From NCBI RefSeq assembly GCF_019459305.1, contig NZ_JAIBES010000138.1:1-52080 (forward strand): a stretch of 52,080 nt of DNA, given 5' to 3'. Origin of the DNA: Sphingopyxis sp. (GTDB taxonomy: Bacteria > Pseudomonadota > Alphaproteobacteria > Sphingomonadales > Sphingomonadaceae). Below the pieces are notes generated by a model. It was not told the DNA's origin, did no database searches, and was given only the letters and a program-made list of their open reading frames with translations. Numbering within the stretch: position 1 is the first letter of the stretch; each line of letters starts with the position of its first letter. Positions 10,761 through 37,361 of this stretch are shown here, piece after piece. A program made the translations under genes and the position numbers.

Positions 10761-10837
10761 GCACCCGTAGCTCAGCAGGATAGAGCATCAGATTCCTAAT
10801 CTGGGGGCCACAGGTTCGAATCCTGTCGGGTGCACCA
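10761..10837 (+). tRNA. tRNA-Arg(CCT)
   Basis: A complete 77-nt cloverleaf: acceptor arm GCACCCG pairing with CGGGTGC, anticodon stem TCAGA/TCTGG around the loop TTCCTAA (anticodon CCT, reading AGG), T-arm with GGTTCGAATCC, and an encoded CCA end. Confidence 0.96.
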
Positions 10838-10927: not shown

Positions 10928-11926
10928 TCAGGGTTGCTGGCCGGGGAACAGCAGCAACCAGTCGGCCTCGGCCTGGACCCGGGCAAAATAGCTCCAGCTG
11001 TCGACGTTGATCGACCGCTGGAGCCAAGGTTTCGCCTTTTCGGCCTCGCCCATCAGGATGTAATAATTGGCGAGGCTGTAGGCGGTCGATGCGGCGACGC
11101 CGTCGGCGGTGGCGAAAGCGCGGCCGGTGTCTTCGGCGCTGAAGAAGGATTTGGGCGACCGATGGCCCTTGAACAGCTGGAGTCCGTCGAAATAGGTGTC
11201 CGGGCTGCCGTCGGGTTGCACCTCGAACAGGGTCAGGTCGTAATCGTCGAGCACCTTCTGCGCCGCGCGCAGATTGCCGCCGCGCGCGAGCGACAGATAT
11301 TCCCAATAGCTGTTCGCGGTGCGCGCTTCGACATCATGGTTGAACGCGGCCGATTCGCTCGATTTGGCGAACCATTTGGCGGCGTTATCGAAATCATGCT
11401 TGGCGAAATAGGCCTGGCCGAGGTGATAATAGAGATAATATTGCACGACGTCGGGGGTGCCGGGGAAATAGTCGGGGCCTGGCTTTTCGCGTTCGAGCGG
11501 CTGACCTTCGTAAATCTTCGCGGCCTTCAGACCGACCTCGACCGACTTGTCGAACTGGCGCAGCGAGAAATGGCGGTGCGCGAGGTGGCGCATCAGCTTG
11601 CCCGAATTGGGAAAGCGTTTGAGCGCGGTTTCATAGACCGCGGCCGATTCTCTGACATAGCCCTGATAGAACAGGATGCGCCCGTACCAGGTCGCAGTGT
11701 CGACGTTCATGTTGCTTTCGAACGCCGCCTTGGCGTCTTTCGCGGCGCGTTCGAGCGTGGCGACCGCGGCGACGCCGACGTTGCGGTCGGGGTTGGTCAC
11801 CATCGGCTGGCCGAGCAGCGAGGTGCCCTGGAAGCTGCCTTCCTGCGCGGCTGCGAGCGACGGGGTCGCGAGCATCAGCAGACTTGCCGACGCCAATAGT
11901 TTCAGGGTGCGGGGGATCATATTCAC
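10928..11926 (-). CDS. periplasmic TPR protein A of the two-winged cluster
   Basis: A 332-residue exported protein: signal peptide MNMIPRTLKLLASASLLMLA ending SLAAAQ, then tetratricopeptide-like helical repeats (WYGRILFYQGYVRESAAVYE, ALKRFPNSGKLMRHLAHRHF, YYLYYHLGQAYFAKHDFDNA). It is clearly related to the protein at 19526-20473: both have TSL(L/I)G-P near the mature N-terminus, W-GR-L-Y-G, LK-FPNS-KL-R, a RQFD repeat, a YY segment and a YW-Y segment in the same order. It is the last gene of the minus-strand wing, 31 bp after the aldehyde dehydrogenase. Function unknown; a periplasmic scaffold or binding role alongside the hydrolases is inference. Confidence 0.85.
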   Translation of the reverse strand: MNMIPRTLKLLASASLLMLATPSLAAAQEGSFQGTSLLGQPMVTNPDRNVGVAAVATLERAAKDAKAAFESNMNVDTATWYGRILFYQGYVRESAAVYETALKRFPNSGKLMRHLAHRHFSLRQFDKSVEVGLKAAKIYEGQPLEREKPGPDYFPGTPDVVQYYLYYHLGQAYFAKHDFDNAAKWFAKSSESAAFNHDVEARTANSYWEYLSLARGGNLRAAQKVLDDYDLTLFEVQPDGSPDTYFDGLQLFKGHRSPKSFFSAEDTGRAFATADGVAASTAYSLANYYILMGEAEKAKPWLQRSINVDSWSYFARVQAEADWLLLFPGQQP

Positions 11927-11957
11927 TCTCCTTGGATCTTGTTTCTTGTGCGTAGTT

Positions 11958-13532
11958 TCACGGATCGATGTCGAGGTCGAACTTCACGCCCTGCGCCAGC
12001 GGCAGCGACGCCGAGTAATTCACCGTCGCGGTGGCGCGGCGCATGTAATTTTTCCAGCTATCGGACCCCGACACACGCCCGCCGCCGGTGACTTTTTCGC
12101 CGCCGAAGGCGCCGCCGATTTCGGCGCCGCTGGTGCCGATGTTGACGTTGACGATGCCGCAGTCGCTGCCCTGCGCCGACTGGAAGCGCTCGGCCTCGCG
12201 GACGTCGTTGGTGAAGATGCTCGACGACAGGCCTTGCGACACGCCGTTCTGCAGCGCGATCGCTTCGTCGAGGGTGTCATAGCCCATCACATAGAGGATC
12301 GGCGCGAAGGTTTCTTCGCACACGATCGCGCTTTGCTGCGGCATTTCGACGATTGCCGGGCGGACATAATAGCCGTCGGCGGCGCCCGCGAGGTCGAGGC
12401 GCTCGCCGCCATGGACGATGCCGCCCTCGCGCCGTGCCTGTTCGAGCGCGCCCTGCATGCCGTCAAAGGCGATCTGGTCGATCAGCGGCCCGACATGCGT
12501 GGCATCGTCGAGCGGCGATCCGATACGCAGGGTGGCGAAAGTTGCGATCAGGCGCTGGACAAAGGCGTCGCGGATGCTGTGGTGAACGATCAGGCGGCGC
12601 AGCGTGGTGCAACGCTGGCCGCAGGTGCCCGTCGCTGCGAACACCGCGCCGCGCAGCGCGAGGTCAGGGTCGGCGCTGGGCGCGATGATCGCGGCGTTGT
12701 TGCCGCCGAGTTCGAGGACCGATCGGCCGAACCGCCCGGCGACGCGCACCGCGACATCCTGTCCCATCCGCACGCTGCCCGTCGCGCTGACGATCGCGAC
12801 GCCGGGGTGATCTGCGATCGCGGTGCCGCAGCGCGCGTCGCCAATCGCGACTTGCACCAGATGATTGGGCGCCAGATCATAATCGTCCGCGGCTTTCGCC
12901 AGCAGCCCGGCAAAGGCGAGCGCGGTGAGCGGAGTTTTCTCCGACGGCTTCCAGATCGCGCTGTCGCCGCAGACCAGTGCCACCGTCGTCCCCCACGCCC
13001 ACACCGCGGCGGGGAAATTGAACGCCGAGATCAGGCCGAGCACCCCCATCGGGTGCCAATATTCGGTCAGACGATGCTCGGGGCGTTCGGACGCGATGGT
13101 CAGTCCGAACAGCTGGCGCGACAGGCCGACGGCATATTCACAGATGTCGATGACTTCCTGCACCTCGCCGCGCGCTTCGGTCAGGATCTTGCCATTCTCG
13201 ATCGACAGCAGCAGCGACAGCGCCTCCTTATGCTCGCGCACCTGTGCGCCATAGCGGCGGACCAGTTCGCCGCGATGCGGGGCCGGAACGAGCTTCCAGG
13301 CGGCAAAGGCGGTGCGCGCGTTCGCAACCATGGCATCGACGTCGCCGGGGGTATCCATGCGCAGCGCGGCGAGCGGCGACCCGTCGATCGGTGAAAAGAC
13401 CGTCAGGTCGGATCCGAGGCGATCGTCGAAAGACAGGCCGAGCTGATCAAAGGTCGATGCCGCTTGCGCCGCGAGCGGGGAGACGGGGAGCGCGGTTGAC
13501 GGGATTTTCGCAATATTTTCGGGAGCGTTCAT
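11958..13532 (-). CDS. aldehyde dehydrogenase, ALDH7 (aminoadipate-semialdehyde) type
   Basis: NAD(P)-dependent oxidation of an aldehyde to an acid; the ALDH7/AmaB group acts on 2-aminoadipate semialdehyde. The 524-residue protein has the catalytic Glu in VLELGGNNAAI and the nucleophilic Cys in GTCGQRCTTLRRL, the NAD-binding SATGSVRMGQ, and the EETFAPILYVM block. LGGNNA and GQRCTT spellings are characteristic of ALDH7. An N-terminal tail of ~35 residues precedes the domain. It lies between the amidohydrolase (47 bp upstream) and TPR protein A, so it presumably oxidises an aldehyde released by the cluster's degradation route. It has no signal peptide and should be cytoplasmic. Confidence 0.88.
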   Translation of the reverse strand: MNAPENIAKIPSTALPVSPLAAQAASTFDQLGLSFDDRLGSDLTVFSPIDGSPLAALRMDTPGDVDAMVANARTAFAAWKLVPAPHRGELVRRYGAQVREHKEALSLLLSIENGKILTEARGEVQEVIDICEYAVGLSRQLFGLTIASERPEHRLTEYWHPMGVLGLISAFNFPAAVWAWGTTVALVCGDSAIWKPSEKTPLTALAFAGLLAKAADDYDLAPNHLVQVAIGDARCGTAIADHPGVAIVSATGSVRMGQDVAVRVAGRFGRSVLELGGNNAAIIAPSADPDLALRGAVFAATGTCGQRCTTLRRLIVHHSIRDAFVQRLIATFATLRIGSPLDDATHVGPLIDQIAFDGMQGALEQARREGGIVHGGERLDLAGAADGYYVRPAIVEMPQQSAIVCEETFAPILYVMGYDTLDEAIALQNGVSQGLSSSIFTNDVREAERFQSAQGSDCGIVNVNIGTSGAEIGGAFGGEKVTGGGRVSGSDSWKNYMRRATATVNYSASLPLAQGVKFDLDIDP

Positions 13533-13579
13533 ATGTCTCTTCTGCCAGTTCTTCGGTTGTTTGTTGCGTTTATTGTGGG

Positions 13580-14929
13580 TCAGTCGGCAGGCCGGGCGAT
13601 GATCCGACCGTCCTTGATGACGACGGCGACTTTCTCCAGCACGGTGACGTCGCGATACGGATCGCCCGCGACTGCGATCATGTCGGCATATTTGCCGGGC
13701 GCGATCGTACCGAGATGGTCCGACTGGCCGAGCAACGCCGCGGCATCGACAGTGGCCGAACGCAGCGCCGCCATCGGGGTCATCGGCCCCTGTTCGACCA
13801 TCTTGCGAAACTGCCGCGCATTTTCGCCATGCGGCGACACCCCGGCGTCGGTGCCAAAGGCGATATTCACCTTATGGCGCACCGCAAGGCGGATATTGTC
13901 GCCCGATACCTTGCGCGCTTCGGCAATTTTTGCCTGCACCGCGGGGGTAAGGCGCGCGGTGTCGGCACTGTCGTGCGATTCCAGCAGGCCGAGCGTCGGC
14001 ACCAGCCAGGTGCCGCGCGCCGCCATCGTCTTTGCGGTGTCGGCGTCGAGGTACGTGCCATGCTCGATTGAATCGACCCCGGCGCGGACCGATGCGGTGA
14101 CGCCCTGTCCGCCGTGCGCGTGCGCCGCCACCTTCAGCCCCAGGCTGTGCGCGGTGGTGACGATTGCGTTCAGTTCTTCGTCGCTCAGATGCTGGCCCAG
14201 CCCGCGCGCCTGCTGCGACATGATGCCGCCGGTCGTGGTGATCTTGATCAGGTCGGCGCCAAATTTCGCGGCCTCGCGCACGCGCAGCGCGCATTCGACG
14301 GCGCCGGTGCATGCGCCGGTATAGTCATAGGGAAACAGCGCCTCGGTCGTTTTGCGGTTGAGCCCCGACATGTCGCCATGGCCGCCGACGATCGAGAGCG
14401 AGGTGCCAGACAGGAAGATGCGCGGGCCGGGGACCGTCCCGTCGGTGATCGCATCGCGCAACGCGTGGATGGCGTAGCCGTCCGACCCGACATCGCGAAC
14501 CGTCGTGAAACCCGCTTCCAACGTCTTTTTCGCATTGGAAAAGGATGCCAGCGCGACGTCTTCGGGCGTGTCGATCGCCGCCGACCAGTTGCGCGTCGCG
14601 GGTGAAAAGCTGAAGTGGACGTGGGTGTCGATCAGGCCGGGCAGCAATGTCCGGTCTTTAAGGTCGATCACCGGCGCATCGCCAACATCGACGTAGCCCG
14701 GCAGAAGCTGAACAATTTTGTCCTTGCGAACGACGATCGTCGTCGGGCCGAGCGCGCGCTCACCGGGAACCGCGATCACGGCGCCGGCATGAATAACAAG
14801 ATCTTGCTCGGCAACTGCTGGCTGCACTGCGGCGGCAGCAGACGTCAGCAGGGCGAACACCGATGCCGACAATGCGCCAAGGCGGCGGGTCGGCCGGTCG
14901 CGTGCGGGCGGGTTGGCGATGTCGACCAC
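13580..14929 (-). CDS. exported metal-dependent amidohydrolase (imidazolonepropionase/prolidase-like)
   Basis: A 449-residue amidohydrolase-superfamily enzyme with a binuclear metal site. Visible ligands: IDTHVHF (HxH), the lysine to be carboxylated in GADLIKITTTGG, His in AAHAHGGQG, His in SIEHGTYLD, and Asp in IAFGTDAGVSPHG. Relatives include secreted Xaa-Pro and other dipeptidases of sphingomonads and Caulobacter. The N-terminus carries an Ala-rich signal sequence after a basic stretch (RRLGALSASVFALLTSAAAA). Start is a GTG at 14929 with GGGGAG eight bases upstream. First gene of the minus-strand wing, divergent from the TonB receptor. Substrate unknown; N-acyl or peptide bond hydrolysis is inference. 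Confidence 0.85.
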   Translation of the reverse strand: MVDIANPPARDRPTRRLGALSASVFALLTSAAAAVQPAVAEQDLVIHAGAVIAVPGERALGPTTIVVRKDKIVQLLPGYVDVGDAPVIDLKDRTLLPGLIDTHVHFSFSPATRNWSAAIDTPEDVALASFSNAKKTLEAGFTTVRDVGSDGYAIHALRDAITDGTVPGPRIFLSGTSLSIVGGHGDMSGLNRKTTEALFPYDYTGACTGAVECALRVREAAKFGADLIKITTTGGIMSQQARGLGQHLSDEELNAIVTTAHSLGLKVAAHAHGGQGVTASVRAGVDSIEHGTYLDADTAKTMAARGTWLVPTLGLLESHDSADTARLTPAVQAKIAEARKVSGDNIRLAVRHKVNIAFGTDAGVSPHGENARQFRKMVEQGPMTPMAALRSATVDAAALLGQSDHLGTIAPGKYADMIAVAGDPYRDVTVLEKVAVVIKDGRIIARPAD

Positions 14930-15014
14930 GTAAAGGACTCCCCGGCGATCGGGCCAGTGCGATCAGCGGCAGCCCTTGAGCACCACATAGGAATATTTTG
15001 CTAGCTAGGCAATA

Positions 15015-15027
15015 AAATTTATGATAG
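15015..15027 (-). promoter_or_regulatory. cluster motif, site 1 (CTATCATAAATTT)
   Basis: In the AT-rich gap between the divergent amidohydrolase and TonB receptor genes, the minus strand reads CTATCATAAATTT. Near-identical 13-mers occur before the XRE-cupin gene (17625) and before the M19-like gene (18431). Proposed binding site for the cluster regulator; inference from shared sequence and position. Confidence 0.45.
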
Positions 15028-15105
15028 GAAAAAATTCAAGAATAAAACGAGGTCCGGAAATTTGCGGTTTTCAGGGTCAATAATGGGTTACCAAGGAGGG
15101 AAATA

Positions 15106-17547
15106 ATGTCGAAGTTCGTTTCACGTCTGCTGTTGTCGTCGGCGCTCGCATTCGCGATCACGCCGGTTGCCCAGGCGCAGACGCCACCGCCCGAAGCTGA
15201 CGGTGCCGACACCGATGAGGGCGGCAGCGATATCGTCGTCATCGGGACGCGCCGCAAGGATCGCTCGATCACCGACAGCTCGGTCGCCATCGACGTCATC
15301 TCGCCGGAGCAGATCAGCACGACCGGCTATGCCGACGTGAACGATGCGCTGCGCACCTTGGTGCCTGCGTTCAACGCGCAGCGCCTGCAGGGAAATGACG
15401 GATCCTCGTTCGTGCGCCCGGTCACGCTGCGCGGTTCGCCGGCCGATCATGTCTTATTGCTAATGAACGGAAAGCGCCGCCACCGCGCCTCGATCGTCCA
15501 GATCGGCACCGGCCACGCGTCGACCTCGGGCTCGCAGGGCCAGGATTTTAATGTCATCCCGCCGATCGCGCTGTCGAGCGTCGAAGTGCTGCGCGACGGC
15601 GCGTCGGCGCAATATGGTTCGGACGCCATCGCCGGTGTCATCAATCTGGAGCTGAAAAAGGCGCGCAGCGGCGGGTCGATCATCGGGCAGGTCGGTGAAT
15701 ATTACGGCACGGGTGGGCGTACCTATGACATTCAGGGGCATATTGCGGTTCCGGTTGGCGACAATGCTTATTTCAACCTGGCGGCGCAGTACACTGACCA
15801 GGCAAAGGCCTATGCGCGCAAAGCCAGCCATGCGGGCGCGGCGGCGCTGCGGGCGGCAGGCGTGCCGGGGGTTCCCGAGCATCCCGAAGGCAATCTTGAT
15901 CCGCGCTACATGGCGTTCAAATCGGTTTGGAACGCCGGCATTGAAATCAGCGACGAGCTGGAAGCCTATACGTTCGGCAACTATATGACCGGCAAAAGCT
16001 CGGTGACTTTCGGTCTGCGCCAGCCTTTCGCCGCGGGCGGGCTGAACGGTCATAGCACCTATGCCAATTCGGCTTTCGACCTCAGTCCGGCGCACCCGCA
16101 GCAGTTCAACCTGGCCAGCATCTATCCGGGTGGCTTCACGCCGGAATTTGGCGGCCATCTCGAAGACTTCAGCGCCCTTGTCGGGCTGCGCGATCAGAAT
16201 GGTCCGCTGACCTGGGATCTGTCGGCGCGCTATGGCACCAACACCGTCGATTATACCATCAGCGGTACGATCAACGCGTCGATGGGGGTGAATTCGCCGA
16301 CGTCGTTCAAGCCTGGTTCTTTGACCCAGCGCGAAATCCAGTTCGACGGGGAAATCGCCTATGAGCTTAACGACGACATCCTGATCTTTGCGGGTGCCAG
16401 CCACCGCAAGGAAACCTATGTCATTGGCGAGGGTGATGTCGCAAGTTACCTGACCGGTCCGTTGCAGGATTTGCCCGCCGGATCGAACGGCTTCCAGGGC
16501 TTCTCGCCTGAATTTGCAGGCAGTTTCGACTCCAATAGCTATGCGGTGTTCGCCGAAGTCGATGCCGATATTACGCCGTGGTGGAACCTGTCCGTCGCCG
16601 GTCGCTACGAAGATTATGACCAGTTCGGGACGAACTTCAGCTACAAGGCGGCGACGCGCTTTGAACTGAGCGATGCTTTTGCGCTTCGCGGGTCGGTCAG
16701 CACCGGTTTCCGCGCTCCGGCGGCGGGACAGGTGTTCGGTACCAGTCTGACCTCGCAACTCGACGGCATGGGCGGTTTCATTCTCGATGCCGTGCTTGTC
16801 CCGGGGTCGCCCGCGGCGCAGGTGTTCGGTTCGGAGACGCTGGAACCGGAAACCTCGTTCAACATGTCGGCGGGTGTCGTTTTTACCGGTCTGGACGGCT
16901 TCCTGACGACGCTGGATTTCTATCAGATCGACGTCGATGATCGCCTGTTGTTGACGCCGTCGCGCAACACCACTGCAGCCGAGCGCGCCGCGCTGGCGGC
17001 GATCGGCTTCCCCAATGGGGCCGATATCGAACAGGTACGCTACTTCCAGAACGAGATGAACACCCGCGTGCGCGGCTTTGATCTGGTCAGCACCTATCGC
17101 CATGGCTGGTCAGACAATGCGTCGACCGACTTCAGTCTGGCGGTGAATTATAACGAGCAGCACCTGCGTGGTACGCCGCCGACGGGGTTTGGTCCGTCGA
17201 TCGTCACCGAGTTCGAGCGCGGTACGCCGCGCTGGCGCGGTAACTTTTCTGCCACAACCAAGGTCGGGGATTTCGGATTCATGGCCCGCGCGATCCATTA
17301 CGGGGCGTGGCGCCGCCGCGACGGCGCCGCCTTCCTGCCGCGCAAGGCGGTGACGCTGTTCGATGCCGAGGTGACCTATTCGGGAATTCAGGACGTCGAC
17401 CTCAGCATCGGCGCGCGCAACATCTTCAATATCTTTCCGCCCGATCGTGGGCCGGGTATCGCGCGCGTCGGTCTGATCTATGACAACCACAGCGTGTTCG
17501 GGGTCGCCGGTGGTTTCTATTATCTGAACGCCAAATATAGGTTCTGA
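15106..17547 (+). CDS. TonB-dependent receptor
   Basis: Outer-membrane active transporter driven by TonB-ExbBD. The 813-residue protein has a signal peptide ending VAQAQ, a TonB-box-like DIVVIGTRR shortly after, a plug domain (residues ~55-190; RPVTLRGSPADHVLLLMNGKRRH, VEVLRDGASAQYGSDAIAGV) and a beta-barrel ending in aromatic YLNAKYRF. An AAGGAGGG ribosome site makes the ATG at 15106 certain. The plug residues GKRRHRA are typical of a large uncharacterised sphingomonad receptor group. Linked with two hydrolases, it likely imports or captures their substrate or product. Ligand unknown. Confidence 0.92.
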   Translation: MSKFVSRLLLSSALAFAITPVAQAQTPPPEADGADTDEGGSDIVVIGTRRKDRSITDSSVAIDVISPEQISTTGYADVNDALRTLVPAFNAQRLQGNDGSSFVRPVTLRGSPADHVLLLMNGKRRHRASIVQIGTGHASTSGSQGQDFNVIPPIALSSVEVLRDGASAQYGSDAIAGVINLELKKARSGGSIIGQVGEYYGTGGRTYDIQGHIAVPVGDNAYFNLAAQYTDQAKAYARKASHAGAAALRAAGVPGVPEHPEGNLDPRYMAFKSVWNAGIEISDELEAYTFGNYMTGKSSVTFGLRQPFAAGGLNGHSTYANSAFDLSPAHPQQFNLASIYPGGFTPEFGGHLEDFSALVGLRDQNGPLTWDLSARYGTNTVDYTISGTINASMGVNSPTSFKPGSLTQREIQFDGEIAYELNDDILIFAGASHRKETYVIGEGDVASYLTGPLQDLPAGSNGFQGFSPEFAGSFDSNSYAVFAEVDADITPWWNLSVAGRYEDYDQFGTNFSYKAATRFELSDAFALRGSVSTGFRAPAAGQVFGTSLTSQLDGMGGFILDAVLVPGSPAAQVFGSETLEPETSFNMSAGVVFTGLDGFLTTLDFYQIDVDDRLLLTPSRNTTAAERAALAAIGFPNGADIEQVRYFQNEMNTRVRGFDLVSTYRHGWSDNASTDFSLAVNYNEQHLRGTPPTGFGPSIVTEFERGTPRWRGNFSATTKVGDFGFMARAIHYGAWRRRDGAAFLPRKAVTLFDAEVTYSGIQDVDLSIGARNIFNIFPPDRGPGIARVGLIYDNHSVFGVAGGFYYLNAKYRF

Positions 17548-17587
17548 TCCGCGCACTCCGCGAGACAGCTTGTTTCCGGTGGGCATA

Positions 17588-17622
17588 TACGGCGCTGACA
17601 TGGGCGAATTGTCAGCGCCGTA
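17588..17622 (+). terminator. strong hairpin after the TonB receptor gene
   Basis: A 13-bp perfect stem (arms ACGGCGCTGACA and TGTCAGCGCCGT plus a closing T-A pair) with a 9-nt loop, 40 bp after the receptor stop. There is no T-run, so it may be a rho-dependent or mRNA-stabilising hairpin that lowers read-through into the regulator gene, rather than a classic terminator. Confidence 0.6.
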
Positions 17623-17624
17623 GC

Positions 17625-17637
17625 CTATCGGAAATTT
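17625..17637 (+). promoter_or_regulatory. cluster motif, site 2 (CTATCGGAAATTT)
   Basis: Immediately follows the hairpin and lies ~100 bp ahead of the XRE-cupin start codon. Matches site 1 at 11 of 13 positions and site 3 at 12 of 13. A further inverted copy of the outer CCTAT (ATAGG at 17645-17649) follows. Consistent with autoregulation; inference. Confidence 0.45.
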
Positions 17638-17739
17638 GTGCATTATAGGATTGTAACGCGGACGGGGCTGCCTGGTTTGACTTGCCATCCCGAATCCGTC
17701 GATCTTGCACTGTTTGGCCAAGGTAAGGACCGCCGATAT

Positions 17740-18363
17740 ATGCCCCCCAGAACAGCAGATGAGCCGGAAATTCTGGGCGCCGTTCGTCAATCGAAGCGGC
17801 CCCGAACCGAAGGTTTCCATCTGGGGCGGCGTCTGCACCAGCTGCGCCGCGAGCGCGGGATGACGCTCGAAGACGCGGGGCGGCTGACCTCGCTCGCTGC
17901 ATCGACGCTGTCGAAGATCGAAAATGACCAGATGTCGCCGACCTTTGATGTTGTGCAGAAACTGGCGCTGGGTTTCGACATCGACATTACCGAGCTGTTT
18001 GCCAGCAACACCGGACAGGACGCTGCCGGACGTCGCAGCATCACGCTGGCCGGAGCGGGACGCCCGATGGAAACGCCGGTCTATAATCACCGGCTGATTG
18101 CCGTCGAGCTGAAGCACAAGAAGATCCTGCCGTTCGTGACGACGATCAAGGCGCGCAGCCTGGAGGATTTCAAAACCTGGTCGCAGCACAGCGGCGAGGA
18201 ATTCCTTTATGTGCTCGAAGGCGAGATCTGTTTTCAAACCGAGCATTATGAGCCCGCGATTCTGGGGGTTGGCGACAGCGTCTATATCGACAGCAGCATG
18301 CAGCACGCCGCCTATTCGACGAGCGAGCAGGACGCGGTCGTGCTGTGGGTCAACACCGGCTGA
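17740..18363 (+). CDS. XRE-family regulator with C-terminal cupin sensor domain
   Basis: A 207-residue transcription factor: helix-turn-helix at residues ~28-87 (LGRRLHQLRRERGMTLEDAG, LTSLAASTLSKIENDQMSPTF) and a cupin_2 domain at ~125-205 (HSGEEFLYVLEGEICFQTEH, LGVGDSVYIDSSMQHAAYS). Members such as PuuR sense a small metabolite in the cupin and usually repress degradation genes. The ATG at 17740 has AAGGTAAGGA upstream; an upstream GTG at 17638 would add 34 unconvincing residues. Sits in the middle of the two-winged cluster and is the obvious candidate to bind the shared 13-bp motif. Confidence 0.88.
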   Translation: MPPRTADEPEILGAVRQSKRPRTEGFHLGRRLHQLRRERGMTLEDAGRLTSLAASTLSKIENDQMSPTFDVVQKLALGFDIDITELFASNTGQDAAGRRSITLAGAGRPMETPVYNHRLIAVELKHKKILPFVTTIKARSLEDFKTWSQHSGEEFLYVLEGEICFQTEHYEPAILGVGDSVYIDSSMQHAAYSTSEQDAVVLWVNTG

Positions 18364-18430
18364 TCGCACCGGATCTGCGCGGCGGAATCGCGCTTTTAGC
18401 ATCGCTTGCAATAATTTTCTTATCGGCTAT

Positions 18431-18443
18431 AAATTTCCAATAG
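18431..18443 (-). promoter_or_regulatory. cluster motif, site 3 (CTATTGGAAATTT)
   Basis: In the AT-rich leader of the M19-like gene, 22 bp before its ATG; the minus strand reads CTATTGGAAATTTATAG, itself an inverted repeat of CTAT/ATAG. Twelve of 13 bases match site 2. Overlap with the probable transcription start suggests repression. Confidence 0.45.
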
Positions 18444-18464
18444 AAAATATTGGGAGTCGATGCG

Positions 18465-19529
18465 ATGGATAGACGGCAATTTGTGCTTTCGGGGGCGGCA
18501 CTGTCAGCCGCCGTGGCAATGGCACCCGCTTTGGCGGCGAAGCAGACCACGCGCCCGCTGACCTTTGACGCGATGGGCGAAGTGCGGTTCGAATATGATG
18601 CGGCGCTGGTCGGCCAGATGCGTGATAGCGGGCTCGACGCGATCACGGTGACATTGTGCGATCCCAAGACCTACGAAGCCCATGCCTATGAGGACGCGAT
18701 CCAGGCGGTGCTCGACCATGACGTACATATCGCCGCCAATCCGGCGCTGTTCCTGAAAGCGACGCGCACCAGCGACATCGACGTCGCGCGCCAGAATGGC
18801 CAGATCGCCATCTATTATCTGTTCCAGAACACGACCCAGTTCGGGCGCGACCTCGACAATATCGACCTGTTCCACAAGCTGGGCGTCCGTTCGTCGCAGA
18901 TCACCTATAACGACCAGAATTGGGCGGGCGCCGGGTGCAAGGAATTGGGCGCCAATGGCTTGACCCATTTCGGCCGCGAGGTCGTGGCACGAATGAACAA
19001 GGTTGGGATGCTGATCGACCTGTCGCATGCGAATATGCAGACGATGTCCGACACGATCAACGCGTCGGCCGATCCGGTGATCATCTCACACACCGCCTGC
19101 ATGGCGATGCACAAGAATGTCCGCAATACCACCGATGACAATCTACGGCTGCTGGCGCAGAAGGGCGGGGTGGTCGGCATTTGCCAGATGCGGCCGTTCC
19201 TGACGACGAAGCGCCAGGGCGCGCTTGCGGACTATTTCCGTCATATCGACCATGCGGTGAAGGTGGCTGGCGCCGACCATGTCGCGATCGGCAGCGACCG
19301 CGACCATCGCGTCGTTGAAATGACCGATGCTTATATCGCCGAACTGAAGCGCGAAGAAGGTGCCAATTTCAACGCCGACGACTGGCCGCTGTTCATCGAC
19401 GAACTCAACGGCCCGCGCCGGATGGAAGTGGTGTGGGACGGGGTGCGCAAGCTCGGTTATGCATCAAGTGACGTCGAAAAGATCATGGGGACCAACGTGC
19501 GCCGCATCTATCAGGATGTGGTCGGATGA
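18465..19529 (+). CDS. Tat-exported M19 (membrane dipeptidase)-like protein with altered metal site
   Basis: A 354-residue member of peptidase family M19 (renal dipeptidase). It starts MDRRQFVLSGAALSAAVAMA, a Tat signal (RRQF). The body has the M19 layout: LFHKLGVRSSQITYND, LIDLSHANMQTM (His188), PVIISHTACMAMHKNVRN (His209) and HVAIGSDRD (Asp278). The usual N-terminal metal motif His-x-Asp (DGHND) is replaced by DAMGEV (Met37, Glu39), and the bridging Glu is replaced within YLFQNTTQFG (Gln121). It may therefore use one metal, a different chemistry, or be a binding protein. GGGAG lies 8 bp before the ATG. Its stop overlaps the next gene (ATGA). Confidence 0.82.
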   Translation: MDRRQFVLSGAALSAAVAMAPALAAKQTTRPLTFDAMGEVRFEYDAALVGQMRDSGLDAITVTLCDPKTYEAHAYEDAIQAVLDHDVHIAANPALFLKATRTSDIDVARQNGQIAIYYLFQNTTQFGRDLDNIDLFHKLGVRSSQITYNDQNWAGAGCKELGANGLTHFGREVVARMNKVGMLIDLSHANMQTMSDTINASADPVIISHTACMAMHKNVRNTTDDNLRLLAQKGGVVGICQMRPFLTTKRQGALADYFRHIDHAVKVAGADHVAIGSDRDHRVVEMTDAYIAELKREEGANFNADDWPLFIDELNGPRRMEVVWDGVRKLGYASSDVEKIMGTNVRRIYQDVVG

Positions 19530-20473
19530 CCGCGCGATTGATGGGCGGCGCAGGGATTGCGCTGGCGCTCCTGCTCGCTGCGGCTCCGCCATCGGTGGCG
19601 GCGCAGCCTGCCGCTACGAGCGCGGGCCAATGCACGACAAGCCTGATCGGCACCCCGCTCACGCTGCCGAAATTTTCGGAGGCGACGCAAAAGCGGCTCG
19701 ATCAGGATATCGAGATCGCCCGCGCCGCGCTGCGCATCGCGCCCGACCGCGAGGATTCGCACATCTGGCTGGGACGGCGCCTCGACTATGCCGGGCGGAT
19801 CTGCGATGCGGTCGACGCGTTCACCGACGGGCTGAAGGCCTTTCCGAACAGCTATAAGCTCTACCGCTTTCGCGCCCGCGACCTGACCCGCGCGCGTCAG
19901 TTCGACGCAGCGCTCGCCGATTACAGCAAGGCGCTCGAGTTGATGGGCGACACCCCCGACAGCTTCGAACCCGACGGGCTGCCCAATCCGATCGGGCTCA
20001 CGATCAGCACCTATCGCGGGAACATCGTCTATTATCATGCGCAGACCAGCTTCGCGACCGGCGACTATCAGACCGTTGTCGACGGGATGGCCAAGTCGCT
20101 GGCGCTGGCGGCCGAATTTGCGCGCGACGATATGCGCGTGCCGACCGCCTATTGGACCTATATCGCCTATCGCAAGATGGGCGAACACGCCAAGGCGCGC
20201 GCCGCGATCGACGCGATCGAGCCGGGGCTGAAACTGATCGAGAACGATATCTACTATCAGGCGGTCCAGATCATGCAGGGGCGGCTGAAGCCTGCCGATG
20301 TCGGCGCGACCAAGGACAGCACGATCAAGTTCGCGATCGCAATGGAGCGCCGCTTTGCGGGCGACGAAGCGGGCGCGAAGGCACTGCTGGCCGAGATCAT
20401 TGCCGAAAATGCGCAGGGTCATTGGCCGGCGGAAGCCGAGCTGGCGGCGCCGGACCGCGCGCCGCGGCGATAG
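19526..20473 (+). CDS. periplasmic TPR protein B of the two-winged cluster
   Basis: A 315-residue exported TPR-like protein: signal peptide MTARLMGGAGIALALLLAAA ending SVAAQ, then helical repeats (WLGRRLDYAGRICDAVDAFT, GLKAFPNSYKLYRFRARDLT, ARQFDAALADYSKALELMG). It is a paralogue of the protein at 10928-11926 (see there). It overlaps the M19-like gene by ATGA, so the two are translationally coupled and probably act together. It ends the plus-strand wing. Function unknown. Confidence 0.85.
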   Translation: MTARLMGGAGIALALLLAAAPPSVAAQPAATSAGQCTTSLIGTPLTLPKFSEATQKRLDQDIEIARAALRIAPDREDSHIWLGRRLDYAGRICDAVDAFTDGLKAFPNSYKLYRFRARDLTRARQFDAALADYSKALELMGDTPDSFEPDGLPNPIGLTISTYRGNIVYYHAQTSFATGDYQTVVDGMAKSLALAAEFARDDMRVPTAYWTYIAYRKMGEHAKARAAIDAIEPGLKLIENDIYYQAVQIMQGRLKPADVGATKDSTIKFAIAMERRFAGDEAGAKALLAEIIAENAQGHWPAEAELAAPDRAPRR

Positions 20474-20916: not shown

Positions 20917-22581
20917 TTACCGCAGGCTGGGGAGGTCCAGCCCCCTCTCACGCGCACAGTCGATGGCGATGTCGTATCCCGCGTCGGCGTGGCGCATGAC
21001 GCCGGTGCCGGGATCGTTCCACAGCACGCGCTCCAGCCGCTTGGCCGCTTCGGGGGTGCCGTCGGCGACGATCACCATGCCGCTGTGCTGCGAATAGCCC
21101 ATGCCGACGCCGCCGCCGTGGTGGAGCGATACCCAGGTTGCGCCGCTGGCGGTGTTGAGCAAGGCGTTGACCAGCGGCCAGTCCGAAACTGCATCCGACC
21201 CATCGCGCATGGCTTCGGTTTCGCGATTGGGCGAGGCGACCGAGCCCGAGTCGAGATGATCGCGGCCGATGACGATCGGGGCTTTCAGCTCGCCCGACGC
21301 GACCATCTCGTTGAACGCGAGGCCAAGCCGGTGGCGGTCGCCGAGTCCAACCCAGCAGATGCGCGCGGGAAGCCCCTGAAACTGGATCTTCTCGCGCGCC
21401 ATGTCGAGCCAGTTGTGAAGGTGCTTATTGTCGGGGAGCAGCTCCTTCACCTTGGCGTCGGTCTTGTAGATATCTTCGGGATCGCCCGACAGCGCCACCC
21501 AGCGGAAGGGGCCGACGCCGCGGCAGAACAATGGCCGGACATAGGCGGGGACGAAACCCGGGAAGTCGAAGGCGTTCTCGACGCCTTCGTCCTTCGCCAC
21601 CTGACGGATGTTATTGCCATAATCGGTCGTCGGCACGCCTGCGGCCTGCATATCGAGCATCGCCTGGACATGCACCGCCATCGACGCCTTTGCGGCTTTG
21701 GCGACCGCGGCGGGATCGCTCTCGCGCTTCGCAAACCACGCGTCGAGGGTCCAGCCCGCGGGGAGGTAGCCGTTGACCGGGTCGTGCGCCGAGGTCTGGT
21801 CGGTGAGCAGGTCGGGGCGGATGCCGCGGCGGACCATTTCGGGCAGGATGTCGGCGGCGTTGCCGAGCAGGCCGACCGAAACAGGTTTGCCCTCGGTGTG
21901 GCTGGCTTCGATCATCGCCAGCGCCTCGTCGATGCTCGCCGCCTGCTTGTCGAGATAGCCGGTGCGCAGGCGCATCTCGATGCGGCTCGGCTGGCATTCG
22001 ATTGCGAGGCACGACGCGCCCGCCATCACCGCCGCGAGCGGCTGCGCGCCGCCCATGCCGCCGAGCCCCGCCGTGAGCAACCAGCGACCCGAAAGGTCGC
22101 CGCCATAATGCTGGCGCCCCATCTCGACGAAGGTTTCGTACGTGCCCTGAACGATGCCCTGGCTGCCGATATAGATCCAGCTGCCGGCGGTCATCTGACC
22201 GTACATCATCAAGCCTTTGCGATCGAGCTCGTGGAAATGCTCCCAATTCGCCCATTCGGGGACGAGGTTGGAATTGGCGAGCAGCACGCGCGGCGCGTCG
22301 CTATGGGTGCGGAATACGCCCACCGGCTTGCCCGACTGGATGAGCAAAGTCTCGTCACCCTCGAGCCGCTTCAGCGTCTCGACGATCCGGTCATAGCTCT
22401 CCCAGTCGCGCGCGGCGCGGCCGATGCCGCCATAGACGACCAGCTCGTGCGGCGCCTCGGCAACGTCGGGATGGAGGTTGTTCATCAGCATCCGCATCGG
22501 CGCTTCGGTGAGCCAGCTCTTTGCCGTGATGTCGGGGCCGGTCGCCGGTCGGATCACGCGGCTATTGTCGAGGCGTGTCAT
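20917..22581 (-). CDS. hutU: urocanate hydratase
   Basis: Second step of histidine degradation: urocanate plus water to imidazolonepropionate, with tightly bound NAD. The 554-residue protein is full length. Recognisable blocks: [56 protein letters not shown] (NAD-binding), [32 protein letters not shown]-like [20 protein letters not shown], and [17 protein letters not shown]. Last gene of the minus-strand hut operon; its start overlaps hutG by 4 bp. Confidence 0.97.
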
Positions 22582-23381
22582 GGTCGTCCTTTCGCAAAAT
22601 CGAGGGTCGCGGCGATCACCTGCTCCAGCACGGGCCGGATCGCGGGATTGGGATCGAGAGGGGAGGGCCAGTTGGTGTGGGTGATCGTATCGGGTTCGGC
22701 CATGTAACCGCGCTGCGCGAGTTCCATCTGGACCGCGTGGATGCCATCGTCGGGGCGGCCGTAGTGGCGCGTCGTCCAGCCGCCCTTGAAGCGGCCGTTG
22801 ACGACATGACTGCGACCGCTCGCCGCACAGATGTTGGCGACGATTGTTTCAAGCTCGGGAGCTGAGGTGGCGCCACCGTTGGTGCCGATGTTGAATTGGG
22901 GCAGCTCGCCGTCGAACAGGCGCGGAACACGGCTCCGGATCGAGTGCGCGTCGTAAAGGACGACCTTGCCATGGGTCGCCCGCAAGCGTTCGAGTTCCTC
23001 GGTCAGCGCGTCGTGATAGGGCCGGTGATACAAGTGGAGCCGCTGAATGATCTCGGCCTCGTCGGGCAGATCGAAACGGTAAAGCGGCGCGCCGTCGAAG
23101 GTGGTCGTCGGGCACAGCTCGGTCGTCGCCTGCCCCGGATAGAGCGACGCGCCCGAGGGGTCGCGATTCATGTCGATGACGCTGCGCGAAATCTCGGTCG
23201 CGACGAGCGTTGCACCAAGATCGGCCGCGAAGGCGTATAGCTCGGCGATCCACCAGTCGGTGTCGATCTGCGCATGCCAGCGCGAGACGAACTGCTCGTC
23301 GAGTCCGGCGAGATCGGTGCCGCCATGCGGAAAGGCGATGACGAGCGGCGCGTCGCCGCGACGGACGCGCAGCCAATCCAT
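22578..23381 (-). CDS. hutG: N-formylglutamate deformylase
   Basis: Hydrolyses N-formyl-L-glutamate to glutamate and formate, the last step of the HutF/HutG branch. From the ATG at 23381 the 267-residue protein begins [20 protein letters not shown] and has the FGase motifs [48 protein letters not shown] and [15 protein letters not shown], then [15 protein letters not shown]. The start codon shares one base with the hutH stop (TAATG). A longer upstream reading would be entirely inside hutH. Paired with hutF, it shows the pathway uses formylglutamate, not direct formamide release. Confidence 0.95.
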
Positions 23382-24901
23382 TAGCTCAGGCCCGGCAGGT
23401 CGGCGGGAACCGCAGCAACCAGGCTGCCCGAACGGATCAGCGCGGTCGCGGCCGCCATGTCGGGGTGGAAATGGCGGTCGTCTTCGAGCGTCGGCACCGC
23501 GGCGCGCAGATGCTGGTGCGCCGCCTCCAGCGCATCGCTCGATGTCAGCGGCGCGTGGAAGTCGATGCCCTGGCACGCGGCGAGATATTCGATTCCGATC
23601 ACCGCGCTGACATTGTCGGCCATCTCGAGCAGGCGGCGAGCGCCGTGCGCGGCCATCGACACATGATCCTCCTGATTGGCGCTGGTCGGGATCGAATCGA
23701 CGCTGGCGGGATAGGCGCGCTGCTTGTTTTCGCTGACTAGCGCAGCGGCGGTGACCTGCGGGATCATGAAGCCCGAGTTGAGGCCGGGGCGCGGGGTGAG
23801 GAAGGCGGGGAGGCCCGACAAGGCGGGATCAACGAGCATCGCGATGCGGCGCTCGGCAATCGAACCAATCTCGCACAGCGCGAGACCGATCATGTCGGCG
23901 GCAAAGGCGACGGGTTCGGCGTGGAAATTGCCCCCCGACAAAGCCTCATCGGTGTCGGCAAAGATCAGCGGATTGTCCGAGACGCCATTCGCCTCGACGC
24001 CGAGTGTCGTCGCGGCCTGACGCAGCAGATCGAGCACCGCGCCCATCACCTGCGGCTGACAGCGCAGGCAATAGGGATCCTGCACGCGCGGATCGTCCAC
24101 CGCGTGCGAAGCGCGGATAGCCGACCCCGCCATCAGGCCGCGCAACGCGTCACCGACCGCGCGCTGACCAGCATGACCGCGCAGCGCGTGGATACGGGGG
24201 TCGAACGGCGCGTCGGAACCCTTGGCGGCTTCGGTCGACAGCGCGCCGGTGATCAGCGCCGACTGGAACACGGTTTCAGCGCGGAACAGACCCGCGAGCG
24301 CATTGGCCGCTGAAAATTGCGTGCCGTTGAGCAGCGCGAGGCCTTCCTTCGGCCCGAGTTCGACCGGCGCGAGGCCCGCCTGCGCGAGCGCTTCGGCGGC
24401 GGGTAGGGTCTGACCGCCGACCTCGATGGCGCCGACCCCGATCATTGCCGCCGCCATGTGCGACAGCGGCGCGAGGTCTCCGCTCGCGCCGACCGAACCC
24501 TGCGACGGAACGACAGGGGTGAGTCCCGTTGCCAGCATCGTCTCGAGCATCGCCACCGTTTCGCGCCGCACCCCCGATGCGCCGACGCCGAAGCTCGCGA
24601 GCTTGAGCGCCATCATCAGACGGACAACGGGGACGGGCGAGGGCGCGCCGGTCCCCGCGGCGTGGCTGAGCACGATGTTGCGCTGGAGCGTCGCCAGATC
24701 GTCGTTCGCAATCCGCACGCTCGCCAGCTTTCCGAACCCGGTGTTGATGCCATAGACCGGGTCGCCCCTGGCCACGATGCGCGCCACGGCAGCGGCGCTG
24801 GCATCGATGGCGTTCCACGCGTCGGCGTTCAGCGTCGCGCTCGCACCTTCATAGATGGCGCGCCAGTCGGCGAGCGTCATCGCGCCGGGGTTGATGATCA
24901 T
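23381..24901 (-). CDS. hutH: histidine ammonia-lyase
   Basis: First step of histidine degradation: non-oxidative removal of ammonia to give trans-urocanate. The 506-residue protein carries the Ala-Ser-Gly triad that forms the MIO prosthetic group in [16 protein letters not shown], plus [44 protein letters not shown], and [20 protein letters not shown]. The ATG at 24901 overlaps the hutI stop by 4 bp (ATGA). Longer upstream reading lies within hutI and is not real. Confidence 0.97.
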
Positions 24902-26082
24902 TGTCCGTCCTTGATACGTTGGTGCAGCGGGTTGAAGCCGATGCGGTAAACCAGCTCGGCGGGTTCGGTGACGTCCCAGATCGCGAGGTCGCATGCCTTG
25001 CCTGCTTCGAGCGTGCCGATCTCGGCGCCGAGCCCGAGCGCGGCAGCGGCGTTCACCGTCACCCCGCGCAGCGCTTCGATCACCGTCAGCCCGAACAAGG
25101 TCGCACCCATGTTGAGCATGAGCAGCAGCGAGGTCGTCGGCGAGGTGCCGGGGTTGTTGTCGGTCGCCAGCGCGATCCGCACCCCGTGGCGGCGCATCGC
25201 CGCGATCGGCGGCAGCTTGGTCTCGCGCATGAAATAAAAAGCGCCGGGCAGCAGCACCGCGACCGTCCCCGCCGCCGCCATCGCGGCGACATCGCCGTCG
25301 GTCGCATATTCCAGATGGTCCGCCGACAGCGCGCCGTGGCGCGCCGCGAGCGCGCTGCCGCTCAGCGACGACAATTGTTCGGCGTGCAGCTTGACCGCCA
25401 GCCCGTGCGCCTGCGCCGCTTCGATCACCTGCGTGCATTGCGCGGGCGAAAAACCGATGCCCTCGCAAAAGGCGTCGACCGCGGTGGCAAACGGCGCCGC
25501 CGCTGGGATCATTTCATTGCAGACGAGGTCGATATAGCCGTCGCTGTTGTCGCAATACTCGGGGGGCAGCGCATGCGCGCCAAGGAACGTCGGCGCGACG
25601 CGGATCCGGCGTCGTTCGCCCAACGCGCGGGCGGCACGCAGCATCTTCAGCTCGTTTTCGGTGTCGAGGCCGTAGCCCGACTTGATCTCGATCGTTGTCA
25701 CCCCCTCGGCGATCAGCGCGTCAAGGCGGGGGAGGGCCGTGTCAACCAGTTCGGCCTCGCTCGCGGCGCGGGTCGCGCGCATCGTTGACACGATGCCGCC
25801 ACCTGCGCGGGCAATATCCTCATAGCTCGCGCCTTCGAGCCGCATCGCCCATTCATTGGCGCGGTTGCCGCCGTGAACCAGATGGGTGTGGCAATCGATC
25901 AGCCCGGGGGTGATCAACCGGCCGCCGCAATCGGTGGTTTTCGCGGCCTTCATCGGCGCACCATCAGCCGGACCGGCATAGACGATCCGCCCGTCCGCTG
26001 CCGTGACGACGCCATCGTCGATCAGTCCCAGCCCGTCATCGGTCAGCGTCGCGAGTCGCGCGTTGGTCCAGCTATGCTCCAT
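24898..26082 (-). CDS. hutI: imidazolonepropionase
   Basis: Third step of histidine degradation: opens the imidazolone ring to N-formimino-L-glutamate. Amidohydrolase fold with zinc ligands in [17 protein letters not shown] (HxH), His in LHAEQLSS, and Asp in [17 protein letters not shown] chose the start at 26082 ([13 protein letters not shown], 394 aa), which matches the usual HutI N-terminus. The alternative ATG at 26109 overlaps the 18-bp operator palindrome by two bases and adds nine atypical residues. First gene of the hutI-hutH-hutG-hutU operon. Confidence 0.95.
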
Positions 26083-26107
26083 CTGGACAACATCTCGCGA
26101 TTGCGTC

Positions 26108-26125
26108 ATTATGTCTAGACATAAT
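26108..26125. promoter_or_regulatory. hut operator, 18-bp perfect palindrome
   Basis: ATTATGTCTAGACATAAT lies between divergent hutI and hutF, 13 bp before the hutF ATG and 25 bp before the chosen hutI start. Perfect dyad symmetry and position fit a GntR/HutC-type operator (core TGTCTAGACA) that controls both transcripts at once. The regulator assignment is inference. Confidence 0.75.
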
Positions 26126-26138
26126 ATGAGGGCTCAAG

Positions 26139-27488
26139 ATGATCGCTTATTGGTTTCAGCGCGCATGGATCGCCAATCAGTGGCTGCACAATGTGCGCCT
26201 GACGGTCGCGGAAGGGCGGATTTCAGCGCTTGAAACCGGTGTCGGCGCCGCGCCCGGTGATGAGCGCCACGCCGCAGCGCTGCCCGGCCTGTGCAACGTC
26301 CATAGCCACGGTTTTCAGCGCGGGATGGCGGGGCTGTCGGAACGCCGCAGCCGCCCCGACGACAATTTCTGGAGCTGGCGCGAAATCATGTACCGCTTCC
26401 TCGACCGGCTGACGCCCGAGGATGTCGCGGCGATCACCGCGCAGGCCTACGCGGAAATGCTCGAGGGTGGTTTCACCCGCGTCGGCGAGTTTCACTATCT
26501 CCACCATGATCCGGCGGGCGCGACCTTCGCCGATCCCGCCGAAATGGCAGGCGCAATCGTCGACGCCAGCTCGGTGACGGGCATTGGCCTGACCTTGCTG
26601 CCGGTCTTCTATGCCCATGGCAATTTCGGCGGCGCGTCGCCAAGCCCCGGCCAGCGGCGCTTCCTCAGCGACATCGACGGCTTTGCAACGCTACTCGACA
26701 GCGCGCGGACCAAACTAGTCGGCGACGCCAATATCGGCATCGCGCCGCACTCGCTACGCGCCGTCGCGCCCGACCAGCTGGCGGCGCTGCTCGCGATGTC
26801 GCCCACCGGGCCGGTCCATATCCACGCCGCCGAACAGGAAAAGGAAGTCGCCGACTGCATCGCATGGAGCGGCGCGCGCCCGGTCGCATGGCTGCTCGAT
26901 AACGCCGCCGTCGATGCGCGCTGGTGCCTGATCCACTCGACGCATCTGGATGCGGATGAAGTGCCGCGTCTCGCCGCCAGCGGCGCGGTTGCCGGGATCT
27001 GCCCGATTACCGAGGCGAACCTCGGCGACGGCATCTTCCCGGCGATCGATTATCTGGCGGCGGGCGGCCGCTTCGGGATCGGCACCGACAGCAATATCCT
27101 GATCGACGCCGCGGGCGAGCTGCGCGCGCTCGAATATTCGCAGCGGTTGGCACATCGCGCCCGCGCGCTGCTCGCCGGAACCGAATTGCCCTTCGTCGGC
27201 GCCAATCTTTACGCCCGTGCGCTCGCCGGCGGCGCGCAGGCGCTGGGGGTCGAAACGGGCCTTGCGGTCGGCCAGCCCGCCGACATCATCTCGCTCGACC
27301 TCGACCACCCGAGCTTCGCGGGAACCGACGACGCGACGCTCCTAGACCGCTTGATTTTTGCGGGCAGGGCAGGGACAATCGACTGCGTCTGGCGCGCCGG
27401 GGTCAAGCGCGTCGCAGGCGGGCGCCATGTCGATCGCAGCGCCATCGCTGCCGCCTATCGCAAAAGCGTCGAGCGGATCGTCGCGTGA
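26139..27488 (+). CDS. hutF: formimidoylglutamate deiminase
   Basis: Converts N-formimino-L-glutamate to N-formyl-L-glutamate and ammonia, feeding hutG. The 449-residue amidohydrolase shows the metal ligands CNVHSHGFQRGMAG (HxH), His in PVHIHAAEQEKEV, His in LIHSTHLDADEV and Asp in FGIGTDSNILID, with DNFWSWREIMYRFLDRL typical of HutF. Start ATG at 26139 with GAGGG upstream. The stop overlaps the hutC GTG start (GTGA). Confidence 0.96.
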   Translation: MIAYWFQRAWIANQWLHNVRLTVAEGRISALETGVGAAPGDERHAAALPGLCNVHSHGFQRGMAGLSERRSRPDDNFWSWREIMYRFLDRLTPEDVAAITAQAYAEMLEGGFTRVGEFHYLHHDPAGATFADPAEMAGAIVDASSVTGIGLTLLPVFYAHGNFGGASPSPGQRRFLSDIDGFATLLDSARTKLVGDANIGIAPHSLRAVAPDQLAALLAMSPTGPVHIHAAEQEKEVADCIAWSGARPVAWLLDNAAVDARWCLIHSTHLDADEVPRLAASGAVAGICPITEANLGDGIFPAIDYLAAGGRFGIGTDSNILIDAAGELRALEYSQRLAHRARALLAGTELPFVGANLYARALAGGAQALGVETGLAVGQPADIISLDLDHPSFAGTDDATLLDRLIFAGRAGTIDCVWRAGVKRVAGGRHVDRSAIAAAYRKSVERIVA

Positions 27489-28142
27489 CGCGCGCGGCGC
27501 CGAACCCGGCGCGCCGAATCCGCGAGGATATCGAGGCCCGCATCCGCTCGGGCGAGTGGAAACCGGGAACAAGGATCCCGATCGAACAGGAGCTCGCGGC
27601 GCGCTACGGCTGCGCCCGCGCGACGGTCAGCAAGGCGCTGGGCGAGCTCGTCGCCGCCGGTCTGGTCGAACGGCGGCGCAAGGCGGGCTCGTTCGTCGCA
27701 CATCCGCCGGTGCATTCGGCGGTGATGACCGTTCCCGATCTGGCCGAGCTGATCGCGGCGCGCGGCGAAACCTATCGCTGGGAAGCGCGCGCGATCGTCC
27801 GCCGCAAAAATGTGGGTGAAGCCGACACGCTGCAGATCGACGGAATCCACTTTGCCGCCGACGAACCCTTCGCGCTCGAACGCCGCACCATCGAACTCGC
27901 CGAAGTCCCTGCGGCGGCGGAGGCGGATTTTGCCGTCGAGGCGCCGGGAACATGGCTGCTCGCGCATATTCCCTGGACCTCGGGGCGCCCAGTGGTGGGG
28001 GGCGGCGGCCTGCCTCCCGCCCCACCGCGACACCGGGCGCGGCGACCGGCCCGTCACGCATGTCCGCCAGCTTTTCCGCGGCGATCGATTCGATCTGGTG
28101 GCCGAGTTTCAGGCCGGGATGCCCCGGCGCGAAGGCGAATGA
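27485..28142 (+). pseudogene. hutC: histidine-utilisation repressor HutC, internally deleted and frameshifted
   Basis: GntR-family repressor whose C-terminal UTRA domain binds urocanate. The N-terminal winged helix is intact (RRIREDIEARIRSGEWKPGT, EQELAARYGCARATVSKALG) and the UTRA domain runs normally to TWLLAHIPWTS. From about 27985 the frame is lost; the family's conserved end, PVTHVRQLFRGDRFDLVAEF, continues in a different frame and stops at 28142. About 25 residues expected between the two parts are missing, so the lesion is a deletion, not only a single-base slip. The undisturbed frame runs on to 28258 as unrelated sequence. Effector sensing is likely lost, though DNA binding might persist. 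Confidence 0.75.
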
Positions 28143-28241
28143 ATTCTGCGCGCTATCCTTGGACCTTTGCTCTCTGTCCTGCGGAGCGGTGCATAAGCCA
28201 TTTGCTTATGCTGTATTGCGATATTAATACGGTAGCTGAGC

Positions 28242-36091: not shown

Positions 36092-36097
36092 GTCAGA

Positions 36098-37252: not shown

Positions 37253-37319
37253 AAGAACCCCTGAATAATGCTGTATTGTGAAACGTAGAGGGCGCAAAAA
37301 CGCCTTGCACAAATCGCCA

Positions 37320-37335
37320 TGTAATTTAGATTACA
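37320..37335. promoter_or_regulatory. probable TetR operator (TGTAATTTAGATTACA)
   Basis: A 16-bp inverted repeat with 6-bp arms TGTAAT/ATTACA lies 68 bp upstream of the efflux adaptor start and 26 bp upstream of the TetR start, in the divergent promoter region. A TetR regulator acting on both genes is the natural reading; inference. Confidence 0.6.
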
Positions 37336-37361
37336 GAAAAGCACAAGGGAGAGAATCACGG

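Follow-up and report, generated by a model that had tools for sequence, protein, structure and literature searches.

Sphingopyxis sp. contig NZ_JAIBES010000138.1 (assembly GCF_019459305.1) was analysed over 52,080 nucleotides, called here the window, which corresponds to contig C58 in a genome that measures about 4.0 Mb. At positions 10928-20473 the window carries a cluster of seven open reading frames (ORFs), of which six or all seven are passed on as a set in a small and scattered part of the sphingomonads. With moderate confidence, the cluster can be read as a locally regulated TonB-dependent locus for the utilization of a peptide or amide, which would feed the oxidation of piperideine-6-carboxylate (P6C) and make use of periplasmic adaptors resembling NlpI.

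The ORFs form two wings that diverge from the region 14930-15105. The left-hand wing (minus strand) encodes an exported amidohydrolase (13580-14929), a putative P6C/alpha-aminoadipate semialdehyde dehydrogenase of the ALDH7 type (11958-13532) and TPRA, an exported tetratricopeptide repeat (TPR) protein (10928-11926). The right-hand wing (plus strand) encodes a TonB-dependent outer-membrane receptor (15106-17547), an XRE-cupin transcription regulator (17740-18363), an M19-like protein (18465-19529) and a second exported TPR protein, TPRB (19526-20473). Pfam and NCBIfam matches in the cluster (TPR, Aldedh, Amidohydro_1, TonB receptor, HTH with Cupin_2, and Peptidase_M19) agree with an earlier note made from the sequence, which had placed all seven genes correctly and assigned them to these kinds of families.

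Conservation and linkage of the cluster

When contigs of named genomes were scanned with the M19-like protein, 20 loci emerged; L017 was excluded because its 3,277 bases are too few. The remaining 19, together with the window and two loci that TPRA led to (in genomes G044 and G012), make up a set of 22, and the named loci among them represent at least five genera: Sphingopyxis, Erythrobacter, Pacificimonas, Pelagerythrobacter and Citromicrobium. Six core genes, for TPRA, ALDH7, the receptor, the XRE-cupin protein, the M19-like protein and TPRB, occur together in all 22 loci, so that a chance neighborhood is rejected; the outer-membrane receptor postulated by the earlier note is thus a constant member. 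The co-occurrence expected for seven genes holds for these six but not for the amidohydrolase, which is present in 16 loci and absent from 6. A gene for an NSS-type symporter is found in five of the six amidohydrolase-free loci, against none of the 16 others, one of which (L023) offers only about 0.9 kb of sequence beyond TPRB.

Because the 19 contig loci had been picked by similarity to the M19-like protein, the reverse test via TPRA matters. A close TPRA orthologue (E ≤ 1e-190) occurs in 7 of 296 order-level genomes, and a close orthologue of the M19-like protein (E ≤ 1e-210) in the identical seven, which together with the constancy of the core bears out the idea of one linked system. The distribution is patchy: TPRA is present in 5 of 149 family-level genomes, is absent from 11 congeners listed and, at E ≤ 1e-30, is found in its own genome alone among 385 class-level genomes. 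Outside the order, TPRB finds matches in 26 of these 385 genomes besides its own, at only 29-42 bits and across no more than a portion of the profile. Of the named relatives represented in the set, Sphingopyxis bauzanensis stands nearest, with cluster proteins 92-100% identical.

The right wing is invariant (receptor, XRE-cupin, M19-like, TPRB). The gene order of the left wing, counted from the divergent promoter, is amidohydrolase, ALDH7, TPRA in Sphingopyxis; ALDH7, TPRA in G012; and TPRA, ALDH7 in Erythrobacter, Pacificimonas, Pelagerythrobacter, Citromicrobium and G044. Genes in the relatives were called with a codon-usage caller made for this analysis; their starts are approximate, and in one survey of 18 loci five (L192, L193, L194, L195 and L197) came out of the caller lacking their M19-like gene.

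All transcription units appear to share a regulatory site. The divergent region contains TTTATGATAGGAAA at 15018-15031, the single match in the window at up to two mismatches (0.10 expected), and TGATAGGAAA is conserved there in 20 of 21 aligned loci with diverging flanks. Exactly one match per genome to TTTNTGATAGGAAA was obtained in seven of eight genomes searched, and a reversed control matched none. Conserved blocks also lie 5' of the regulator gene and 5' of the M19-like gene. A matrix trained solely on the pre-regulator block of 13 relatives, with the window excluded, placed 18413, 18431 and 15015 at ranks two, three and four over both window strands; among 500 column-permuted matrices none had its three best hits all within these two promoters, 2 had two of them there and 42 had one. 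In leave-one-out runs on 11 of the 13 relatives, the site 1 region ranked 2-6 in 11/11, and the site 3 and site 2 regions each ranked 1-5 in 10/11.

One putative operator, about TTTCCnATnGGAAA, therefore recurs at all three promoters, and by our reading its sites fit an imperfect palindrome. In the window they are site 1 in the divergent region (15015-15031, minus), site 2 upstream of the regulator (17621-17637, plus), and sites 3a (18413-18429, minus) and 3b (18431-18447, minus) upstream of the M19-TPRB pair. A candidate sigma-70-like promoter of the right wing (14998-15025, plus; TTGCTA-16-TATGAT) is proposed from a consensus match at 9 of 12 positions. The protein that binds the operator may well be the local XRE-cupin regulator (HTH_3 and Cupin_2). 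Its mechanical ORF begins at GTG 17638, but its extent was taken from relatives, and because these align across about 200-240 aa the start is probably ATG 17740, for a product of 207 aa.

The TPR proteins and the M19-like protein

TPRA and TPRB are paralogues, as the earlier note had claimed. They share 28% identity over 259 aa in BLASTP (E 2e-19), their profiles (10 orthologues each) align by hhalign over 271 columns with probability 99 and E 3.3e-18, and all five sequence blocks named in the note occur in both. Neither of the findings that the note had said would refute it, TPR genes unlinked to the others in relatives or TPR proteins of no significant similarity, was obtained. The TPR matches of TPRB lie under the Pfam cut-offs (best 20.9 versus 27). 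Since each profile, when compared with 45 window genes, finds TPRA and TPRB alone at E values up to 10, their kinship exceeds a generic TPR resemblance.

The predicted model of TPRA has a TPR fold that matches NlpI, the periplasmic TPR adaptor of Escherichia coli (PDB 1xnf, 5wql, 8xud), across most of the chain at 14% identity; among the best 60 of 166 PDB sequence matches of profile A4, NlpI does not appear. NlpI is a peptidase adaptor with a lipoprotein anchor, whereas TPRA and TPRB have no lipobox and their partners are putative; a lipobox-like motif occurs in 3 of 30 family rows, some of these rows starting downstream of the signal peptide. A second comparison is offered by SusCD-like systems, in which a TonB receptor is likewise encoded together with an exported TPR-type protein. 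SusD is a glycan-binding surface lipoprotein, whereas the two TPR proteins lack a lipobox and look NlpI-like; SusD, not compared directly, is absent from the fold-search matches listed, which excludes nothing.

In 22/22 loci the stop codon of the M19-like gene overlaps the start of TPRB (ATGA in 21, GTGA in the other), an arrangement that points to translational coupling and to partner proteins. A piece consisting of receptor, M19-like gene and TPRB also persists in the distant genome G171, at 52-58% identity, so that TPRB and the M19-like protein make the tightest pair and, on the best reading, TPRB would pair with this protein. The proposal that each hydrolase has its own TPR partner may hold for these two, but the pairing of TPRA with the amidohydrolase is not supported: as six loci lack the latter, it is probably not what TPRA chiefly serves. 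The overlap, the cluster-wide putative operator and the NSS symporter gene of other genera go beyond the earlier note.

The M19-like protein carries the Peptidase_M19 domain and fold, is highly conserved and is named a dipeptidase by the sources. Its start is probably ATG 18465, which yields, by eye, a Tat-like (twin-arginine translocation) MDRRQF N-terminus; residue numbers below count from 18450. M19 enzymes bind metal through an HxD motif on strand 1, a bridging Glu, two His and an Asp. In this protein M42 and E44 replace the H and D of HxD and Q126 replaces the Glu, while H193, H214 and D283 are retained. Compared with the M19 renal dipeptidases (GliJ, Sco3058 and the human renal dipeptidase) and with Pseudomonas aeruginosa 2i5g, HxD has become MxE and Glu has become Gln; an FQN block is common to 2i5g and the M19-like protein. 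With the HxD and Glu ligands replaced, the periplasmic hydrolysis that the earlier note expected of this protein is not established.

The altered site leads to a bolder possibility, to be taken as tentative and rather doubtful: a new periplasmic processing machine, in which cluster-dedicated NlpI-like TPR adaptors would hold M19-fold proteins that use MxE/Gln for a reaction other than dipeptide hydrolysis, perhaps on imine or cyclic-imine amino acids. This chemistry is proposed because of the company kept by the HxD-less class. Apart from the P6C dehydrogenase, its relatives adjoin L-amino-acid-oxidase-type genes in the genomes of group f8, relatives of pyrroline/piperideine-2-carboxylate reductase in four of the eight loci L150-L157 (one was scored and lies below the family cut-off), and oxoprolinase-type genes in L199.

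Several other arrangements of such genes were seen. In f8 genomes, L114-L117 and L144-L149 hold several tandem L-amino-acid-oxidase-type genes beside M19-like pairs or TPRB-like pairs. In L152 (G149:C13) an HxD-less M19-like gene lies directly 5' of a TonB receptor-like gene and, by eye, a metal/vitamin-type ABC importer. Other f8 loci (L095-L101, L107 and L112), with families assigned from single representatives, contain repeated clusters of several TPR paralogues, an amino-acid ABC transporter, SBP_bac_3 and Asparaginase_2, and further an S58 peptidase, CutC, rhodanese (four matched stretches) and a GGDEF-EAL protein.

ALDH7 and the proposed pathway

The semialdehyde-type dehydrogenase anticipated by the earlier note is supported by family scores: the ALDH7 of the window reaches 755.5 bits against NF050084 (P6C dehydrogenase; cut-off 730), and the locus copies of L031 (796.9), L014 (733.1), G044 (809.0) and G005 (806.3) all exceed the cut-off. 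Its PDB relatives are 6dbb, 6rtr (Pcd, E 3.7e-185) and antiquitin, so the protein would oxidise P6C/alpha-aminoadipate semialdehyde. It resembles bacterial P6C dehydrogenase (Pcd) in this respect, yet it is not the sole such enzyme of its own genome, since a second copy (781 bits, 57% identical) lies on contig C62. Seven genomes were searched: two copies each occur in G000, G042, G278 and G012, the locus ALDH7 is the sole one found in G044 and G005, and the single copy of G171 lies away from the locus.

In a midpoint-rooted tree of 13 ALDH7 proteins, built without an outgroup, the locus copies of Sphingopyxis and G012 form their own group (100/100), and the remaining locus copies join the non-locus copies of G000, G042, G012 and G171. 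By this tree two ALDH7 lineages occupy the locus, and the split, together with the two gene orders, suggests that a P6C dehydrogenase was brought to the locus, or replaced there, at least twice. Such repeated recruitment would link the locus with the catabolism of lysine or pipecolate.

The amidohydrolase is near full-length alike to 2qs8 (E 8.7e-83) and to 3mtw, the Cc2672 carboxypeptidase (E 5.7e-73), and is further related to 8ihq. It is thus a relative of Xaa-Pro dipeptidase and Arg/Lys carboxypeptidase, and retains by eye a complete HxH/K/H/H/D site; it is accessory, and differs from these enzymes in scoring below its nearest equivalog cut-off.

On the favored reading, the receptor would let a small peptide or amide enter the periplasm. 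There it may be processed by the M19-like protein, exported via Tat and held by TPRB as its cognate partner, and in Sphingopyxis by the amidohydrolase as well. The freed amino acid would pass to the cytosol, in other genera perhaps through the NSS symporter that the cluster encodes, be converted elsewhere to P6C/alpha-aminoadipate semialdehyde and be oxidised by ALDH7; this last step makes a derivative of lysine or pipecolate the most likely nutrient. TPRA and TPRB would act as NlpI-like periplasmic adaptors that group hydrolases or the receptor, the likeness of fold having been predicted for TPRA, and the XRE-cupin protein would repress or switch all transcription units through the one operator.

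Several observations weigh against this reading. The binuclear metal site of M19 dipeptidases is incomplete in the M19-like protein, and the amidohydrolase reaches only 374.9 bits against NF051886 (Xaa-Pro dipeptidase; cut-off 500). No enzyme for the P6C-forming step was found: lysine 6-aminotransferase was rejected, since none scores over the cut-off in any of six genomes, and a Sacchrp_dh_C protein, which occurs in five of the six, has an ambiguous role. G171 has no ALDH7 or XRE-cupin gene in the 20 kb read and keeps its P6C dehydrogenase elsewhere, and in G166 (f8) the M19-like pair lies about 300 kb from TPRB-like genes, so the link between M19-like protein and TPRB is not general. As for the operator, L018 departs from TGATAGGAAA, G228 (the eighth genome searched) has zero matches to TTTNTGATAGGAAA, and site 3 ranks 181 in L031 and site 2 ranks 52 in L032.

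Rather unlikely is a salvage of cell-wall peptides containing D-amino acids, in which the M19-like protein and the amidohydrolase would cleave L,D-dipeptides and the TPR proteins would organise peptidoglycan hydrolases as NlpI does. The partners of NlpI in the PDB are, by entry titles, MepS and Prc, and the M19 structures 3s2j and 3ly0 contain L-D dipeptide mimics, again by title. The same genome also has a parallel island, L187 (C117:28001-41000), with genes for an XRE-cupin protein, a beta-lactamase-family protein, an MR/MLE enolase-fold enzyme, an HxD-less M19-like protein, a TonB receptor and DUF1611; these may have D-amino-acid functions, and the island is possibly a utilization locus for D-amino-acid peptides. 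Yet the matches of the seven proteins include no peptidoglycan-hydrolase family, a P6C-type ALDH7 is not known to belong to wall salvage, and the metal ligands of the M19-like protein are altered.

It is improbable that ALDH7 serves in stress or aldehyde detoxification and shares the divergent promoter by chance with a peptide system free of P6C. ALDH7 enzymes can have broad aldehyde and osmotic-stress roles, and the G171 locus does without the gene; its presence in 22/22 loci, its two lineages in different gene orders, and G044 and G005, with no other P6C dehydrogenase found, count against this view. Equally hard to credit is the uptake of a metal or siderophore, with a metallophore imported by the receptor and matured or cleaved by the M19-like protein in the manner proposed for PvdM during the maturation of pyoverdine, since the seven proteins match no siderophore biosynthesis family (no search was made for Fur-type sites), the family matches of the receptor are weak and unspecific, and the NSS symporter and P6C dehydrogenase fit poorly.

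Beside the cluster, at 20917-28258, lies a Hut set with hutU, hutG and hutH (by family) and, by eye, hutI, a formimidoylglutamate-deiminase-like gene and a HutC-like gene. The link is incidental: among the 22 loci, within the available flanks, hutU occurs in the window and S. bauzanensis (L015) only. A tRNA-Arg (CCT) occupies 10761-10837, its end lying 91 bases short of that of TPRA; integration at this tRNA was rejected, as it stands beside the cluster in the window and L033 but was absent there from the 18 further loci that were scanned. Farther away, at 31534-37997, an RND-type efflux set (outer-membrane factor, AcrB-like pump and fusion protein) with a divergent TetR-like regulator was recognized by eye.

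Implications for TonB receptors and putative TPR adaptors

Searches of open-licence papers for this combination of genes brought up no such system, and the earlier note knew of none; one match was a Pseudomonas fluorescens proteomics study, and PA5396 is in none of the 10 papers listed out of 382 that match PA5396 or dgcA. Many sphingomonad TonB receptors have no known ligand. Here one receptor family is tied to a defined putative operator, to alpha-aminoadipate as the probable end product and to a pair of dedicated TPR proteins, which should make its ligand traceable by reporter induction and growth tests. The analysis also brings to light a well-conserved branch of M19 proteins that are named dipeptidases and have no dipeptidase metal site. 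If the proposed function is correct, the principle embodied by NlpI, a TPR adaptor for periplasmic hydrolases, would be widened from cell-wall housekeeping to nutrient capture.

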